Shown here: one piece after another, positions 6,322 to 22,235 of the stretch
Position numbering within the stretch: position 1 is the stretch's first letter
Layout: each line of letters opens with the position of its first letter
Origin: a virus
Length of the DNA stretch: 22,419 nt
Virus record (IMG/VR): IMGVR_UViG_3300001748_000033
Span: 1 to 22,419 of that record
Reading direction: 5' to 3' (one strand)
Program-made: the position numbers and the translations under genes
Notes under the pieces: generated by a model
The model's input: the letters and a program-made list of their open reading frames with translations, nothing else
Database searches by the model: none
What the model was told of the DNA's origin: nothing

Positions 6322-7026
6322 ATGGCTATAGCAGGCGTACCAATATCGACTCTTAGGGAACTTGTCATACCCGCGAGCGATGATTATCTAGTCATTAATG
6401 ACCAAAGCACTTTTACAACAAAAAGAATTACATTCGCTAATCTTTTTGCTGATTATGCTAGCAATCTTAGAGATTCTGCTACGGGTGCGTTCGTCGATAA
6501 TTTTACAACTAACAGTCTTAACGTAAAAGGAAATGCGTCAGTTACGGGTGATGCTACGATCTTAGGCACAATCAATTTCGAAAATCTCTATGATGTTGTT
6601 GAAGGTATTACGATAAGTAAGTTTGTTGATGAAGCTGATGGTATTGCAAGTAATGATAATGATACTTCGATCCCAACATCAGCAGCAATAAAAGCATATG
6701 TTGACGGAGCTGTTTCTGACTATCGTGCAAAAGAAAACATCAAGCCATTTGGTGAGGCGTTAAAAAAACTAAATGGTATTAAAGCGTATGAGTACAACCT
6801 GATTGCAGAACCTGGCGTCACCGAAGTTGGTTTCATTGCACACGAACTACAAGAAAGATTGCCTACTTTAGTCAATGGCGAAAAAGATGCAGTTTACGAA
6901 GGTGGTAAGCCGAAATATCAAACAGTGAATTACGCTAAAATGGTTCCCATTTTGTTCACCGCAATTCGTGAACTAGAAAAGCAAGTAAGAGACTTAAGAG
7001 ATCAACTTGCAGAGATTAAAGGATAA
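6322..7026 (+). CDS. Fibre protein with C-terminal S74-type self-cleaving chaperone domain
   Basis: The 234-residue protein has three parts. Residues 1 to about 45 are the shared fibre N-terminal domain (ISTLRELVIPASDDYLVIND, then TFTTKRITFANLFADY). Residues about 55 to 130 are a module also found in the gene at 8512: a LNVKGNASVTGDATI strand block, DVVEGITISKFVDEADGI, then IPTSAAIKAYVDGA. Residues 132 to 234 are a Peptidase_S74 intramolecular chaperone: it begins SDYRAKENIKPFGEALKKL and contains EVGFIAHELQERLPTLVNG, then VNYAKMVPILFTAIRELEKQ. In the endosialidase family this domain trimerises the fibre and cuts itself off just before the serine of S-D-x-x-x-K; here Ser132 and Lys137 have exactly that spacing, so cleavage between 131 and 132 is expected. 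The protein is short for a fibre, so the mature piece would be only about 131 residues. Confidence 0.85.
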   Translation: MAIAGVPISTLRELVIPASDDYLVINDQSTFTTKRITFANLFADYASNLRDSATGAFVDNFTTNSLNVKGNASVTGDATILGTINFENLYDVVEGITISKFVDEADGIASNDNDTSIPTSAAIKAYVDGAVSDYRAKENIKPFGEALKKLNGIKAYEYNLIAEPGVTEVGFIAHELQERLPTLVNGEKDAVYEGGKPKYQTVNYAKMVPILFTAIRELEKQVRDLRDQLAEIKG

Positions 7027-9290: not shown

Positions 9291-12200
9291 ATGCATAAAG
9301 GCTTTCTCGACAAAAGAAGAAGATTCCTTAATCTGCGAGAAATGCAGATCGAAAATGTTTTGCCTGAACATTTTACACAGTCATATCCAAAATTTATCAA
9401 TCTTCTTTCTCGCTACTATGAGTGGCAAGATCAAAACAATCCTAATGAATTATTAAATCATCTTTTTGCGACTCGTGATATTAATGAAACTGATATCACG
9501 CTTCTCTCGTTTATTGAAGATGAGTTTCTTTTAGGCGAAGCATACTTCGAAGGCTTTGGTGACACCGAAGCAGAGAAAAGGGCTGCTGCAAATTTTTCAA
9601 ATCAGATGTTTCGTTCAAAAGGCACAAAATTCGCAATCGAATGGTTTTTCAGATCATTCTATGGGCTAGACGCAGAAGTTCGTTACACAAAAGAAAATGT
9701 ATTTACGCTCAACACACAGTCTTCTCAGATAGGACCAGATTCGCTACGCTATCTTACCAATGACGAACTATATCAGACATTTGCGCTTCTTGTTCGCGTA
9801 GGTGTTCCTATTGCAAAGTGGAGAGATATCTTTAAACTCTTTGCACATCCTGCGGGAATGTATCTCGGTGCTGAAGTTTCTATAAATGATGCTGTGACTT
9901 CTGCCGTAAATTCTTTGATGCTTGATTCTGCAGTTGAACAAAGAGCCAACGAATCATATACAATTCTTGCAACGCCTGACAGCACAAACGAAGGCGCTAT
10001 AATTAATTTTAAAGTTAACGGAACAAACATTCCTAACAATACTGGTTATATTTACTATCATGTTCTTGATCTCACTACAAGCGATTCAGATTTTGTGGGA
10101 ACTGTTCCTCGATTAGACAGTTTGCAGTATCTTCCCATAAACGATAGTGCTGGTCAAGCGGTTGGAAGATTTACGATTACCACCAAGCTTGATAGTGTTG
10201 AAGGTGAAGGTGTTCATTCGTTTAATGTTATTTTGCGTGACGATGATTTGAGACCTCGAGGTGTTGAAAGAGTCAACTTAAACGATGTTATTTCTTCGTA
10301 TGTTATGACTCCTACGGCAACTACTATCGCTGAAGGTTCGCCTGTTACTTTTAATGTTGTGGGAACAAATGTCCCAAGCGGCGGTAGCACAACATTATAT
10401 TATTATGTACAACACGTTACTACAAGTGATTCTGATTTTAAAGTTGCACCTCCAAGTGCTGCTGCGCCTGCTTCATTTTTTATTCGAGGAAGTACAGGGT
10501 CGTTTTCTATAACGCCTCAAATTGATAATGATCTTGTTGACAGTGACGAACAGTTTAAAGTAATTATTCAGACACTTGACGCTATCAAAAAAGATTCAGC
10601 AACAATTACAGTTTCACAGACCATTCCTCCCTTTGCTGTAAATGCAATTGATTCTGCGATTGAAGGCACGAGTATTGTTGCACCTCTTACAATTTCAGAA
10701 CAAGATTTTGGCGACACTTTAACGTGGGCAATTACAGGCGCTGCAGCATCCGATAGTCGACTAGCTTTCAATACTTCAGGCACAATTGTAGCGACTTCTG
10801 CAAGTCAAAATCTAGTAATACCTTTGGGCACTACTAAAGAATACACAGGTCCAGTTTCGGGAACCCTTACGGTCACAAATTCGAACTATACTCCTACACC
10901 GTTAAGTACGAACAATACTTTCACGATTTTTGATTCTGCACCTACATATTCTATTCTTATGAATCCTGCAGTTGCTGGAGAAGGCGACACCGTAACATTT
11001 AAACTAGCTGGCAGAAACATTCAAGACAGCACTTTTTATTTTTATATCGACAATGTAACAACTAACGATTTAGATTTTCTTGGTGGGCGACCAAAAAACA
11101 CTAGCAGAGAAGCAGTCTCAGTTGTTAACGACTCTGGTACCACCAATTCAATCACTTTTGCTGACAGTGGTGAAGTTGTAGATCAAAATTTCATTGCTTA
11201 CATGTATAATACAGTATCTGGTGGATCGGTGCTTGCGTCGAAGCAATTTACGATTGCGGGCATTACTTATACACTTACACCAAATACGAGTTCTGTTAAC
11301 GAAGGCGGTACAGTAACGTTTACGTTTATTGGTCCGGACGGAACTTATTATTACTGGCTTGAAGGGCAGCGGCTACCAGGACAGACTCAGCTTTTCTCAC
11401 AAGGCGATTTTACTAGTGGTTTTGCAAATATAAACAGTCGTTTGGCATTTAACGTAACCGGAGGCAGTGGATCTTTTTCAGTAACACTCGCAAATGATAT
11501 TCGATCAGAAGGTACAGAAGCTTTCATTGCAAGCGTGTCAACAAGCCCAACAAGCGGAGCTATAGCTGTTTCGCCACAGATTACAATTAATGATACTTCT
11601 AAGCAAGAATATACGATGACGATTCAAAACATTCTTGAAGGTGACGATTTGCTTGTTAATGTAGCATCAAATGCAGGACCTTCAGAGCCTTTGTTTTATG
11701 AAATTTCTGGGGCGGCCGCGGCTAAATTCAGTTCAACACAAATTTATAGATTATACACTGGGGCTCAGACTTCTTTTAATGTAAATCTTGGAACTTCGAC
11801 AACAAACTCAGCTTTTGATGGTGTGTTATCTGGTACTGTAACACTGTCGCGTGGCGGTTATGTTGGAAGCGGCGGTACACTAATCGACACCGCGAACTTT
11901 ACTTTAAGCGATCTTGCTGCTACGTTTACGCTTGCTGCAAGCACAACTACACCAAACGAAGGCGGAACTATTACTTGGACTGTAGGCGGCTCAAGTATTG
12001 AAGACGGCACTTACTATTATAGAGTATCTGATGTTAAAAGAGCATCAGTATCTTCGGCTGTTTCATCCGGAACTTCTGTTATTAATCTTGCAAGCACAGC
12101 TGGAATTACAGTTGGCATGGCATGCGATAACGCTTCAATATCTGGGACAGTCACAGGTGTTTGGGATACTCAAGTTACAATGAGTTCACCAGTCACATCT

Positions 12201-13373
12201 ACGATAGGCGCAGGAACAATTTTGAATTTTGCAAATCAATCGGTGTTTGATGATTTTACAAGTGGCTATGCAGGATCAGTCAGTGTGACATCGAATGCAG
12301 GTGCTTTCAACACTGTCACTGCAATTAACGCAGACACTAAGAACGATGCGTATACGATGGGATTATACACCACATCAACTGGTGCTTCTCCTGTAGCGTC
12401 TGTAGGATTTACGACAACAGATGCAACTCCAGCTTCGATAGTTAATATTCTTATCGATGCTGGTAAAGACTTTGTTTACGATATTAATCCTGATCCACCT
12501 GCGTATGATGCGGGCGTGGCAAGATCGATTATCAGATTTGAAAACGATGGTAAAGTATATGCTATTGGCAGCGAGAATCCAGGAGGAGGTGACCGCAGCA
12601 GTGGCGAGTTGATTGGCACTTGGGTGTCTAGTGGGCCCGTTGGTAACTTTAACATATCAGCACAGGTCGTTTCAGGACCTACACCAAAAGGCACGTTTAT
12701 TGGTTCTACAGGAACGCAATTGTCTCTGTCGACGAACAGAGGCTGGTATCTTGAAGTGCCAGCGCCGACATCTGGTAGCAATGAAGGAACGTTAAGAGTT
12801 GACATTACAATTACAGACGTAGAAGATCCTTCGAACACAGACACACAACGCTTTGAGCTATATGCCGTTGCGAATGCTTTGCCTGTAACAGCACCTGTTG
12901 ATCCGCCTCCTCCAGGCTCAAGTAGTCAGCTTGACGAAGACTGTTTTACAGAAAATTCTTTTGTCACGTTAACTGATGGAACTAGAAAAGAAATTCGATT
13001 AATTGAAGTTGGTGATAAAGTACTTGGTGCAGACAAGTCGATCAATGAAGTTACGCGCAATCATTCTATCGAAAAAACTTCTGCTCTGTATGGATGGGGC
13101 AGCACAGTACCGTTTGTGACTGGCGCTCATCCATTCTTAACAACACAAGGTTGGAAATGTTTTAATTTAGAAGCAGGGCGTAAACTACATCCTGAGCTTG
13201 ACCTGACAGAAATACAAGAAAACGATAAATTAATTGTTTGGAATGGAACAGAATATACGACTTCGACAGTTCAAAATATTGCCATTGAAATCAAAAACGT
13301 TAAAATCAATAGCTTGAGTGTGACGGGTAATGACACTTACATTGCGAATGGATTTGTTGTTCACAACAAATAA
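9291..13373 (+). CDS. Giant Calx-beta-repeat virion protein with C-terminal Hint autoprocessing domain
   Basis: The 1360-residue product has a helical N-terminal domain (about 1 to 215), including VLPEHFTQSYPKFINLLSRY and FRSKGTKFAIEWFFRSFYG, of a type found in large structural proteins of marine T4-like phages. Residues about 222 to 1044 are beta-sandwich repeats with the Calx-beta-like signature NEGGTVTFT ... DGTYYY (starts near 222, 337, 553, 660 and 879). A second module type starts near 445 and 774 (ITGAAAS / ISGAAAA). The fifth Calx-like repeat holds a foreign insert (917 to 983). A distinct beta domain (about 1045 to 1200) and a Pro-rich linker follow. Residues 1218 to 1360 are a Hint domain: Cys1218 (block A, CFTENSFVTLTDGTRKEI), T1277-x-x-H1280 (block B, TGAHPFLT) and a final V-H-N-K with His1358-Asn1359. 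Hint domains cleave themselves through the Cys. The ribosome binding site is weak. A long adhesin is the likely role. Confidence 0.8.
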   Translation: MHKGFLDKRRRFLNLREMQIENVLPEHFTQSYPKFINLLSRYYEWQDQNNPNELLNHLFATRDINETDITLLSFIEDEFLLGEAYFEGFGDTEAEKRAAANFSNQMFRSKGTKFAIEWFFRSFYGLDAEVRYTKENVFTLNTQSSQIGPDSLRYLTNDELYQTFALLVRVGVPIAKWRDIFKLFAHPAGMYLGAEVSINDAVTSAVNSLMLDSAVEQRANESYTILATPDSTNEGAIINFKVNGTNIPNNTGYIYYHVLDLTTSDSDFVGTVPRLDSLQYLPINDSAGQAVGRFTITTKLDSVEGEGVHSFNVILRDDDLRPRGVERVNLNDVISSYVMTPTATTIAEGSPVTFNVVGTNVPSGGSTTLYYYVQHVTTSDSDFKVAPPSAAAPASFFIRGSTGSFSITPQIDNDLVDSDEQFKVIIQTLDAIKKDSATITVSQTIPPFAVNAIDSAIEGTSIVAPLTISEQDFGDTLTWAITGAAASDSRLAFNTSGTIVATSASQNLVIPLGTTKEYTGPVSGTLTVTNSNYTPTPLSTNNTFTIFDSAPTYSILMNPAVAGEGDTVTFKLAGRNIQDSTFYFYIDNVTTNDLDFLGGRPKNTSREAVSVVNDSGTTNSITFADSGEVVDQNFIAYMYNTVSGGSVLASKQFTIAGITYTLTPNTSSVNEGGTVTFTFIGPDGTYYYWLEGQRLPGQTQLFSQGDFTSGFANINSRLAFNVTGGSGSFSVTLANDIRSEGTEAFIASVSTSPTSGAIAVSPQITINDTSKQEYTMTIQNILEGDDLLVNVASNAGPSEPLFYEISGAAAAKFSSTQIYRLYTGAQTSFNVNLGTSTTNSAFDGVLSGTVTLSRGGYVGSGGTLIDTANFTLSDLAATFTLAASTTTPNEGGTITWTVGGSSIEDGTYYYRVSDVKRASVSSAVSSGTSVINLASTAGITVGMACDNASISGTVTGVWDTQVTMSSPVTSTIGAGTILNFANQSVFDDFTSGYAGSVSVTSNAGAFNTVTAINADTKNDAYTMGLYTTSTGASPVASVGFTTTDATPASIVNILIDAGKDFVYDINPDPPAYDAGVARSIIRFENDGKVYAIGSENPGGGDRSSGELIGTWVSSGPVGNFNISAQVVSGPTPKGTFIGSTGTQLSLSTNRGWYLEVPAPTSGSNEGTLRVDITITDVEDPSNTDTQRFELYAVANALPVTAPVDPPPPGSSSQLDEDCFTENSFVTLTDGTRKEIRLIEVGDKVLGADKSINEVTRNHSIEKTSALYGWGSTVPFVTGAHPFLTTQGWKCFNLEAGRKLHPELDLTEIQENDKLIVWNGTEYTTSTVQNIAIEIKNVKINSLSVTGNDTYIANGFVVHNK
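12942..13373 (+). other. Hint (intein/hedgehog-type) domain at the C-terminus of the repeat protein
   Basis: Residues 1218 to 1360 carry the Hint landmarks in order: a Cys nucleophile at the start, a block-A-like sequence (TLTDGTRKEIRLIEVGDKVL), a T-x-x-H block B (T1277, H1280), and the terminal block (DTYIANGFVVHN) ending in His-Asn plus one Lys. There is no C-extein and no homing-endonuclease insert. Self-cleavage before Cys1218 is predicted from the family; it has not been shown here. Confidence 0.8.
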
Positions 13374-19347: not shown

Positions 19348-19659
19348 ATGAGTGAAGCACAAGATACTGTAATTGATGAACTTGAGGCAGAGCCTATCCA
19401 AACCGATTCGCAACCAATTGCTGATCTAATAAAAGCAATTGAAGATCAAAATTTTACACAAGCTGAGCGTCATTTTAACGATGTCGTTGGCGACCGTTTG
19501 CAAGATACGCTTGATCAAGCAAAATCAAGAATTGCCGCTTCACTGGGTCAAGAACCTGAAGAAGCGTCTGCTGATGAGTATGAAGTTGAAAATGATGACG
19601 AAGAAATCGATCTTGATGATGAAGACTTCGACGACGAAGAAGAAGACACTGAAAAATAA
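19348..19659 (+). CDS. gp67: Acidic prohead core protein, gp67-like
   Basis: The 103-residue product has a helical segment (ADLIKAIEDQNFTQAERHFN, then RLQDTLDQAKSRIAASLGQE) and a strongly acidic C-terminal tail (about residues 73 to 103, mostly Asp and Glu). T4 gp67 has the same plan (LIEAIKSNDLVAARKLF... followed by an acidic tail) and the same position just after gene 20. gp67 is part of the prohead core and helps set head shape. A GAGGAA ribosome binding site overlaps the end of gene 20. The assignment rests on architecture and position more than on long identity. No clean gp21 site of the form (I/L)-x-E/(A,S,G) was found in it. Confidence 0.8.
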   Translation: MSEAQDTVIDELEAEPIQTDSQPIADLIKAIEDQNFTQAERHFNDVVGDRLQDTLDQAKSRIAASLGQEPEEASADEYEVENDDEEIDLDDEDFDDEEEDTEK

Positions 19660-19664
19660 ATTTT

Positions 19665-19672
19665 TATAAATA
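19665..19672 (+). promoter_or_regulatory. T4-type late promoter box TATAAATA, close to the start at 19685
   Basis: An exact TATAAATA in the 25-base gap after gene 67 ends 12 bases before the next ATG. The expected message leader would be only about six or seven bases and contains no Shine-Dalgarno sequence. Confidence 0.7.
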
Positions 19673-19684
19673 ATTAATAACATT

Positions 19685-20332
19685 ATGAATATAGATGAAA
19701 AATTTATAACTAAAGTTGCCAATGCTCATATGTACGAAGTTATGGCAAATAAAAGTCGGTATCTTGAGCCCGACAACTTTAGTACAGTTCAATATATGAA
19801 TCCTCGTGTACATATTGATCTGATTAAATTTAAAGAAATGGTAATTAGAACGTTACATAAATTTGACAAGGCGGGGGCTTACTTAAATATAGGTAGTGCA
19901 GCAGGTCATTTAGAATATGTGAACAATCTAATTCCTTCTGCTCCTCACAGAGCTTCAAGAATTATCATGAGTTCTGTTGAGTGGGTTGATCAGTATGATT
20001 GTTGTAAAGCAATCAGAGAGCAACTTGGGGTAGATATACATTACATTTGCAATGACGTTTTACAAGACGATTTTGAAATTTTCAATTGTAAAACTTATTT
20101 TGATAATGTAATTTTAGAAAGATTTTTTCCTGTGTATAGAAGTATGACTTATCACAGGATAGAAGAAGTTTTAAGAAAGTTTGTGCCATATGGAAGAAAT
20201 GCAGTTGTAGTCGAAAGTGAAGGTAATTTGAGCAAAGATCAAGTAAATTACTTTAACAGAATTGCAACAGACAAAATGCATATTTCTGGAAAATGGCATT
20301 GTTTTGTAGTTAAACTGGAACAATTTAAATGA
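19685..20332 (+). CDS. Possible SAM-dependent methyltransferase-like accessory protein
   Basis: I do not recognise this 215-residue protein as a standard T4 head gene. Residues 66 to 78 (YLNIGSAAGHLEY) look like the glycine-rich motif I of class I methyltransferases. A V-E-W-V-D segment about 25 residues later could be the acidic motif II, and the hydrophobic stretch NVILERFFPVY (about 140 to 150) suits motif IV. Part of the usual C-terminal strand pattern (NAVVVESEG, then WHCFVVKLE) is also there. The gene is more AT-rich than its neighbours (two hand-counted 60-base lines, at 19801 and 20101, give 27% GC, against 45% for the line at 21841 in gene 22). It has its own late promoter, no visible ribosome binding site, and a 4-base ATGA overlap with the next gene. 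Function and substrate are unknown; the methyltransferase reading is tentative. Confidence 0.45.
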   Translation: MNIDEKFITKVANAHMYEVMANKSRYLEPDNFSTVQYMNPRVHIDLIKFKEMVIRTLHKFDKAGAYLNIGSAAGHLEYVNNLIPSAPHRASRIIMSSVEWVDQYDCCKAIREQLGVDIHYICNDVLQDDFEIFNCKTYFDNVILERFFPVYRSMTYHRIEEVLRKFVPYGRNAVVVESEGNLSKDQVNYFNRIATDKMHISGKWHCFVVKLEQFK

Positions 20333-20535
20333 AGACATTTAAACAACTTCGCGAAGCAAAGGGCAAAATGCCGCCAGGCGAACATGTCTTCGATAAAAAA
20401 GTGAATCGTCATTCTGTGATGGTTCACAAAGATAGTAAAGGATTCACTGTTTATATTGACGGTGACAAACTGGACACCTATCGTTCTCAAAAAGAAGCAG
20501 AGAAGATGGGTGTGGCTTTTGCAAAGGAAATGTAG
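20329..20535 (+). CDS. Small head protein with capsid-targeting-like N-terminus
   Basis: This 68-residue basic protein begins MKTFKQLREAKGKMPPGEHV. The N-terminus resembles the T4 internal-protein capsid targeting sequence (MKTYQEFIAE/A in IPIII), and L7-R8-E9/A10 fits the gp21 cleavage rule (I/L)-x-E/(A,S,G). The rest (SVMVHKDSKGFTVYIDGDKL, then DTYRSQKEAEKMGVAFAKEM) predicts a small beta-hairpin plus helix domain. It sits where T4 has gene 68, another core protein, but I cannot show homology to gp68. Its start overlaps the stop of the previous gene (ATGA) without its own ribosome binding site, so translation is probably coupled; its stop is directly followed by the gene 21 start. Packaging into the head with removal of nine residues is inferred. 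Confidence 0.7.
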   Translation: MKTFKQLREAKGKMPPGEHVFDKKVNRHSVMVHKDSKGFTVYIDGDKLDTYRSQKEAEKMGVAFAKEM

Positions 20536-21201
20536 ATGAAACTCATTGCTGAATACATTGACAACGGACTAGAAGTTATTACCGAAGCGAAGAGCGACGG
20601 TACTAAGTCCTATATGATTGAAGGCATCTTTGCACAAGCGGAACAAAAGAATCGTAACGGTCGTGTATACCCTCGCACAATCATGGAGCGAGCAGTAGAA
20701 AAATACATGACCGATCAAGTTGCTAAAAAGCGTTCGGTGGGTGAGTTGAATCACCCCGACGGACCTACTATCAACTTGGACAAAGTTTCTCACCTCATCA
20801 CTGGGCTTCAATGGGAAGGCAATGATGTGGTTGGAAAGGCACAAATATTGGATACTCCAATGGGTAAGATTGTAAAAGGTCTACTTGATGGCGGTGTTCA
20901 ACTAGGTGTGTCAACTCGTGGTATGGGTAGTCTTGAGCAAAGAAATGGCACTATGTATGTGCGTGACGACTTTATTTTAAATACTGTCGATATCGTACAA
21001 GATCCTTCTGCACCTGCAGCCTTTGTTAATGGAATTATGGAAGGTGTCGAATGGGTATGGAATAACGGTGTCATTCAAGCACAAGAAATTGAGAAGATGG
21101 AGACTGAAATTAAAGCCGCTCCGAAAAAGCATCTCTACGAGACGCAAGTTCGCGAGTACAAGAATTTCCTCTCACAGCTCAAATCAAACTTTAAGGAGTA
21201 A
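20536..21201 (+). CDS. gp21: Prohead protease gp21
   Basis: The 221-residue product matches T4-like gp21: YMIEGIFAQAEQKNRNGRVY, then PRTIMERAVEKYM, GELNHPDGP with catalytic His73, and GVSTRGMGSL with nucleophile Ser126. The spacing of His and Ser is like that of T4 gp21. It is a serine protease that assembles in the core, activates itself, and trims core, scaffold, portal-associated and capsid proteins after prohead assembly. Two sites fitting its own specificity are visible: I15-T16-E17/A18 near the N-terminus, suiting removal of a propeptide, and I167-M168-E169/G170 after the catalytic core. The start ATG directly follows the previous stop, with AAAGGAAA upstream. Confidence 0.94.
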   Translation: MKLIAEYIDNGLEVITEAKSDGTKSYMIEGIFAQAEQKNRNGRVYPRTIMERAVEKYMTDQVAKKRSVGELNHPDGPTINLDKVSHLITGLQWEGNDVVGKAQILDTPMGKIVKGLLDGGVQLGVSTRGMGSLEQRNGTMYVRDDFILNTVDIVQDPSAPAAFVNGIMEGVEWVWNNGVIQAQEIEKMETEIKAAPKKHLYETQVREYKNFLSQLKSNFKE

Positions 21202-21206
21202 AACAT

Positions 21207-22235
21207 ATGTCTGATCAAGACCAACATGTTGAGCTTCCGGTCGATGAGTCTATCGAGGAAGCTAGTGCTGCGAAGATGCCTGTAGGTACTGAGGCAGATT
21301 CAATTGCGTCTGTAGACAAGACGGATACTACTAAGAAGGCTCCCGCTCGTAAAGGGGATACCGGAAAGCAAGATCCGATGCCGAAGACCAAAGCAGGAAT
21401 GCTCAACGCTATGTATGGCAAGATGGCTGGTATGAAAAAAGACCAACTGACTGCTATGTACAGCAAGATGCAAGAAGAAGTCGATCTGGATGACGAAGAA
21501 GCCATTGAGCTTCCTGAGTTCTCTTACACCGACGAGCTTGATGCACTTGTTGAAAGCGAAGCAACATTGTCTGATGAGTTCAAAGCGAAGACTGCTGTGA
21601 TCTTTGAAACGGCTATTCGTTCTAAGCTGTCTGAAGAAATTCAGCGCTTGGAAGATGAATATCAAACTCGCCTCGACGAAGAACTGGACGCTACGCGCAC
21701 AGACCTTGTTGAGAAAGTTGATAGCTACCTCAACTACGTTGTTGAAAATTGGATGGAGCAAAACAAACTCGCTGTTGAGACTGGTCTGCGCACTGAAATC
21801 GCTGAAGATTTCATGGGCAAACTGAAGGACCTGTTCCTTGAGTCTTACATCGAAGTGCCTGAGTCCAAGATTGACCTAGTTGATGAACTTGCTGAGCAAG
21901 TTGAAGAGCTTGAAGAAAAACTCAATGCTCAAACTGCTGACGTTCTTGCAATGAACGAAACGCTTGAGGCTTACATGCGCGAAGCTGTAATCCGTGAAGC
22001 TGCTCGTGACCTTGCAGAAACTCAAGTAGAAAAACTCAAGTCTCTTGTTGAGTCTCTTGACTTTGAAGACGAAGAAACTTTCGCACAAAAGGTGAAAACT
22101 GTGAAAGAGTCTTACTTCAAGAAAGAAGTGAAGAGTGAAGAAGAGATTGTTGAAGATTGGGAAGCAGATCAATCGCGCGAAGTTTCTAGCGTGATGGATA
22201 TGTACCTTAACGCAATTAAGAAATCCAATAAGTAA
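21207..22235 (+). CDS. gp22: Scaffold (prohead core) protein gp22
   Basis: The 342-residue product (T4 gp22: 269) lies between genes 21 and 23. It is acidic, almost wholly helical and rich in coiled-coil-type Glu/Leu stretches (LSEEIQRLEDEYQTRLDEEL; LVDELAEQVEELEEKLNAQ), as expected for the major scaffold. It forms the core on which gp23 assembles and is then cut to peptides by gp21. Fitting cleavage sites can be read at I16-E17-E18/A19, LVE116/S117, IRE264/A265 and LVE282/S283. A conserved KTKAGMLNAMYGKMAGMKKD segment (from about residue 58) is typical of marine T4-like gp22. AAGGAG lies eight bases before the ATG. Confidence 0.92.
   Translation: MSDQDQHVELPVDESIEEASAAKMPVGTEADSIASVDKTDTTKKAPARKGDTGKQDPMPKTKAGMLNAMYGKMAGMKKDQLTAMYSKMQEEVDLDDEEAIELPEFSYTDELDALVESEATLSDEFKAKTAVIFETAIRSKLSEEIQRLEDEYQTRLDEELDATRTDLVEKVDSYLNYVVENWMEQNKLAVETGLRTEIAEDFMGKLKDLFLESYIEVPESKIDLVDELAEQVEELEEKLNAQTADVLAMNETLEAYMREAVIREAARDLAETQVEKLKSLVESLDFEDEETFAQKVKTVKESYFKKEVKSEEEIVEDWEADQSREVSSVMDMYLNAIKKSNK

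Follow-up and report, generated by a model that had tools for sequence, protein, structure and literature searches.

A 68-amino acid protein encoded directly before the prohead protease gene of a marine T4-like myovirus is probably an internal head protein with a T4-style targeting leader. Its sequence is MKTFKQLREAKGKMPPGEHVFDKKVNRHSVMVHKDSKGFTVYIDGDKLDTYRSQKEAEKMGVAFAKEM, beginning with MKTFKQLRE/A (the slash marks the predicted cleavage site). Some two dozen unrelated proteins of related viruses bear the same tag, and the 68-amino acid protein therefore probably belongs to a group of proteins packaged alongside DNA that has largely escaped recognition. The window (the whole stretch of DNA analysed; 22,419 nucleotides) is part of the structural-gene region of this virus. 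The earlier note had proposed both a T4-style targeting leader and association with the head, and this part of its interpretation was supported by four observations: the slot before gp21, a late promoter, the occurrence of the leader on unrelated proteins, and a single LxE site.

Gene, head operon and distribution

The open reading frame proposed in the earlier note was confirmed exactly: plus strand, from ATG to TAG, 68 amino acids (Table 1). Searches with PHROGs and Pfam identified the tail tube, portal gp20, gp67-like acidic protein, gp21 protease, and gp22 scaffold in the window, and the genes followed the order of a T4-type head operon: portal, gp67-like protein, a 215-amino acid accessory gene, the 68-amino acid gene, gp21 protease, and gp22 scaffold. 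Since the stop codon of the 215-amino acid gene overlaps the ATG of the 68-amino acid gene by 4 nt, and the ATG of gp21 begins at the base next to the stop codon of the latter, the 68-amino acid gene is probably translated together with the protease.

Table 1. Features of the head operon around the 68-amino acid gene (positions in the window).
Feature	Position	Strand	Basis or remark
gp67-like acidic prohead core protein	19348..19659	+	phrog_1064 prohead, E=1.8e-7
TATAAATA, T4-type late promoter element	19665..19672	+	upstream of the 215-aa and 68-aa genes
215-aa accessory gene, between late promoter and 68-aa gene	19685..20332	+	ORF
Gene for the 68-aa leader-bearing, candidate small head protein	20329..20535	+	ORF, IMG/VR family, pN/pS
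9-residue leader MKTFKQLRE, targeting-sequence-like	20329..20355	+	F4, I/L7, R8, E9 conserved; common to unrelated proteins
Predicted mature part, residues 10-68	20356..20532	+	AlphaFold; without further [LIM]xE site
gp21-type prohead protease (Pfam Peptidase_S77), presumed cutting enzyme	20536..21201	+	PHROGs/Pfam
gp22-type scaffold/core protein, presumed leader-binding partner	21207..22235	+	phrog_237 and T4_CASP

Relatives of the protein were found in hundreds of IMG/VR viral contigs (153, 368, and 493 confirmed by tblastn; these sets overlap). In the close set (37 variants), gp21 started 0-4 nt past the family gene at every locus whose flank reached gp21, and in the distant set it lay within a few nt at most loci. 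Distant members included those of Phage C48C1 (Kyanoviridae; 45.6% identity) and, at 40% identity, of a phage contig placed in the bin of a Sphingobacteriales MAG. The gene was absent from the corresponding slot of cyanophages S-WAM1, P-TIM68, ACG-2014f, and S-B68 and of pelagiphage HTVC008M, where the slot was empty or held other small proteins. The accessory gene was missing in many relatives; since only some of them contain it, it appears to be an insertion at the slot before gp21. PHROG and Pfam scans gave no match for its 215-amino acid product, in which one stretch (YLNIGSAAGHLEYV) resembles methyltransferase.

The late promoter element TATAAATA was present at most 60 nt upstream of the family gene in 27 of the 37 close variants, with a chance expectation of approximately 0.3% per gene at the given base composition. 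When relatives were fetched by the mature part alone (see below), the same element was found within this distance in 36 of 37 leader-bearing variants. The pN/pS ratio, calculated with ten same-length homologues, was 0.19 for the whole gene, which therefore evolves as a conserved protein; the ratio was 0.17 for the mature domain, corresponding to strong conservation.

Conservation and cleavage motif of the leader

In the close set, residues F4, I/L7, R8, and E9 were kept, R8 being invariant, while the length of the stretch just past E9 varied. To avoid circularity, relatives were also fetched with an alignment of the mature parts alone (41 variants), and M..F..[ILF]RE was recovered in 37 of these; two others had a T4-like 10-residue form (MKSYKEILSE), and in another two Asn replaced Glu at the end of the leader. 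Translation of the window in six frames gave the stricter core [KR]xFxx[IL]RE[AGS] a single time, immediately behind the start codon of the 68-amino acid gene; no protein start carried it in lambda, T4, or T7, or in the parts covered of HTVC008M (80 kb) and T5 (50 kb).

The comparison with T4 internal proteins made in the earlier note was correct: IPII and IPIII start with MKTYQEFIAE/A, and IPI starts with MKTFKEF and has its site at ITE19/A. The M-K-T-aromatic start, the hydrophobic residue 7, L/I-x-E at the leader end, the following Ala, the single cleavage site, small size, and basic character are common to IPI, IPII, IPIII, and the 68-amino acid protein. The leader lengths, described in the earlier note as mirroring each other, are not equal: 10 or 19 residues in T4 and 9 in the 68-amino acid protein, where an invariant Arg precedes Glu. 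The T4 gp21 cleavage motif is L/I-X-E, and in the T4 leader targeting depends on residues 4 and 7 and processing on residues 8 and 10 (PMC9026906). The proposed agreement with the T4 cleavage rule also held, LRE9 fitting this motif, and an L/I-x-E motif closed the leader in all 37 close variants. The 68-amino acid protein and each of these variants contained only one [LIM]xE site. One [LI]xE was similarly found in each of T4 IPI, IPII, and IPIII (in the sequence part compared), whereas gp22, gp67, and gp68 contained several. The single motif, as in T4 internal proteins, therefore favours survival of the mature domain.

The residue just past the leader (P1') was less uniform: A 23, S 3, K 10, and E 1 in the close set, and A 19, L 8, S 5, G 4, and K 1 in the mature-only set. 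At the major capsid cleavage sites of the same phages, P1' was mostly A, T, V, G, or S, with no K or R (read by eye). The [ILV]xE motif at the N-terminus of gp21 itself (20536-20600 of the window, and relatives) was followed by K or R in 10 of 31 variants, a pattern like that of the 68-amino acid family; K may therefore be tolerated, or may mark uncut forms. Cleavage of the window's own form (LRE/A) is likely, and cleavage across all forms of the family is doubtful.

Mature domain

The mature part, described in the earlier note as 59 basic residues, indeed comprises 59 residues, but is only mildly basic (12 Lys and Arg versus 9 Asp and Glu; pI 9.3). AlphaFold predictions with two alignments (pLDDT of 81 and 78) gave the same secondary structure: a helix at residues 4-11/12 with low confidence, four strands, and a C-terminal helix; a variable linker (residues 10-16) opens the mature part. 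Thus, the structure prediction suggested in the earlier note yielded a four-stranded sheet plus helix, but no convincing relative. The best Foldseek match in the PDB was spermidine synthase (E of 0.07, 44 columns), which was not convincing. In the VIA fold search against the PDB, the highest Z (5.2) was obtained with 6d7k_D, a methane monooxygenase inhibitory subunit (51 residues, rmsd of 2.0), followed by tyrosinase caddie proteins (Z of approximately 5); none of these PDB fold matches stood out from common arrangements. The fold matches listed did not include T4 IPI, an absence that carries no weight. Searches of the PDB with sequence profiles likewise found no convincing relative, and the best match in BFVD was the unnamed D6PIQ5 (31% identity, E of 0.0026).

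PHROG, Pfam, and PADLOC scans assigned the 68-amino acid protein to no accepted family, and by sequence criteria it founds a family of its own, without an accepted Pfam or PHROG match. Weak matches to ArdcN (E of 0.05), Y01A, TS_C, and DUF2188 were not used because they were under the cut-offs and inconsistent among members. The similarity to Pfam PF25693 (Phage_Y01A; T4 dda.1) covered approximately 33 residues of strand-strand-helix; it was under the curated cut-off in the window protein, with a best E of 0.0007 among the 41 members, and T4 dda.1 has no leader, unlike the 68-amino acid protein. The mature part had no detectable sequence relation to T4 internal proteins and was strongly conserved, whereas the latter are variable; furthermore, unlike the genes of T4 internal proteins, the 68-amino acid gene is in the head operon and adjoins gp21.

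Leader on unrelated proteins

In Phage C48C1, the core [KR]xFxx[IL]RE[AGS] was found three times in approximately 300,000 six-frame residues, each time immediately behind ATG or GTG, and the carriers were three unrelated proteins: MRTFKELREAKD, MKKFTEIREARR, and MKDFFELREAYR. Adjacent leader-bearing genes were clustered at 66771-68408 of this phage (L151, 16771-18408). For the CDS at 66970, translation probably starts 51 codons further upstream than annotated, at GTG 66817, which gives MKDFFELREAYRK.

Viral contigs were then searched at the DNA level with patterns for MKKFxx..(R/S)EA and MKTFxx..(R/S)EA, retaining proteins of at least 45 residues and removing the first ten residues before clustering. 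The 158 distinct proteins formed 27 clusters, unrelated at E of 1e-4, one of which was the family of the 68-amino acid protein; chance probably accounts for a few of the small ones. Because the patterns themselves impose the leader on this set, its presence there was given no weight as evidence of conservation. A reversed control pattern had no match in any searched record. Among 15 long records searched, an S77 protease was present in all six of those longer than 100 kb. A looser count of the leader motif per genome (observed versus expected) gave 6 versus 1.3 in C48C1 (P of 0.002), 4 versus 0.9 in genome G003, and 4 versus 1.2 in T4, with no excess over expectation in genome G001 or the MAG contig; this enrichment was only modest, and the stricter tests took the place of the count.

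Unrelated leader-bearing families were located just upstream of gp21 in different phages: the 68-amino acid family, a family of approximately 190 residues (approximately 390 nt before gp21), and a very basic 122-amino acid protein (15 nt before gp21; contigs L307 and L318). Large leader-bearing proteins were also found. One of them, with 709 residues (contig L213, 1748-3874, minus strand), contained a cytidylyltransferase-like domain and DUF5824, and proteins of 650-820 residues with the same domain type were present in L235, L219, L274, and L276. The later modules of the L213 protein are found on their own, each with a leader, in other phages (47%, 59%, and 44% identity), which points to a polyprotein or to packaged proteins that have fused.

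A broader proposal is that the common leader (MKxFxx(I/L)RE and related forms) is a modular tag loading dozens of unrelated proteins, including the large cytidylyltransferase-domain protein, into the heads of marine T4-like phages for delivery with DNA, the head serving as a general vehicle for protein delivery and the site beside the protease gene as an exchangeable slot. We put forward this proposal tentatively, at slightly under even confidence. If it is true, the nine-residue tag would make it possible to list, from sequence alone, the proteins that abundant marine phages package and perhaps inject, most of which are now "hypothetical", and the 68-amino acid family would be a marker of the tag system at a conserved place; semi-tryptic peptides beginning just past the leader Glu would be predicted in purified virions. 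A search of the open-access literature found no paper on targeting leaders in marine T4-like phages.

Possible function and alternatives

As an internal head protein, the 68-amino acid protein would be expressed late, and its leader (F4, I/L7, and R8) may dock the precursor on the scaffold core, the putative partner, during prohead assembly. gp21, made from the next gene, would cut past E9, and the freed 59-residue, mildly basic sheet-plus-helix domain would then remain in the head with DNA and probably exit with it. The leader may, however, serve only for docking, to gp21 or to the core, without obligatory cleavage; the family would then be partly uncut and act in assembly, not after ejection. 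Some members have K, E, or L at P1' or have lost E9, while F4, I/L7, and R8 mostly stay; the T4 rule prescribes no residue at position 8, yet R8 never varies, and Asp at position 10 of the T4 leader stops processing but not targeting (PMC9026906). Since nearly all members nevertheless keep E9, and the L/I-x-E rule applies throughout the close set, we regard docking without obligatory cleavage as unlikely, albeit deserving of some weight. It is highly improbable that an ordinary small protein has an N-terminal helix reading like the T4 leader by chance: the leader is just nine residues with a loose cleavage rule, and both AlphaFold models show residues 4-11 as a helix, but its recurrence at the starts of unrelated proteins, the promoter, and synteny argue against coincidence.

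Within the preferred reading of an internal head protein, the earlier note had offered two roles: an ejected effector or a core component. An ejected anti-defence or host-takeover effector, a special case of this reading, would have a precedent: T4 IPI, similar in size and equipped with a CTS leader, inhibits a restriction enzyme upon injection (PMC3012670). This role gained no support from PADLOC or from the fold, which was not informative; hhalign with T4 IPI aligned leader residues 1-9 alone (probability of 4.7%), and the strong conservation of the mature domain differs from the variability of T4 internal proteins. An effector is thus a rather unlikely assignment. Replacement of T4 gp68, which as part of the prohead core contributes to head shape and would be largely removed once cleaved, is very unlikely. 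The position between gp67 and gp21 is that of T4 gp68, and the very basic 122-amino acid leader-bearing protein in the slot of other contigs is compatible with such a role. However, T4 gp68 is longer (141 residues), and its several LxE sites and very basic tail have no counterpart in the 68-amino acid protein; no sequence resemblance between the two was visible, and the predicted domain also appears compact. Taken in the sense of gp68, the core component of the earlier note is less likely: several LxE sites are present in core proteins, against one in the 68-amino acid protein.

Other genes in the window

Two further features were noted. A 1360-amino acid structural protein (9291-13373) has at its C-terminal end what looks like a domain of the Hint type (intein/hedgehog-like; CFTENSFVTLTDGTRKEI ... 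IANGFVVHNK), and the C-terminal part of the product of 6322-7026 (DYRAKENIKPFGEAL...GFIAHELQ) resembles an S74-type intramolecular chaperone domain.
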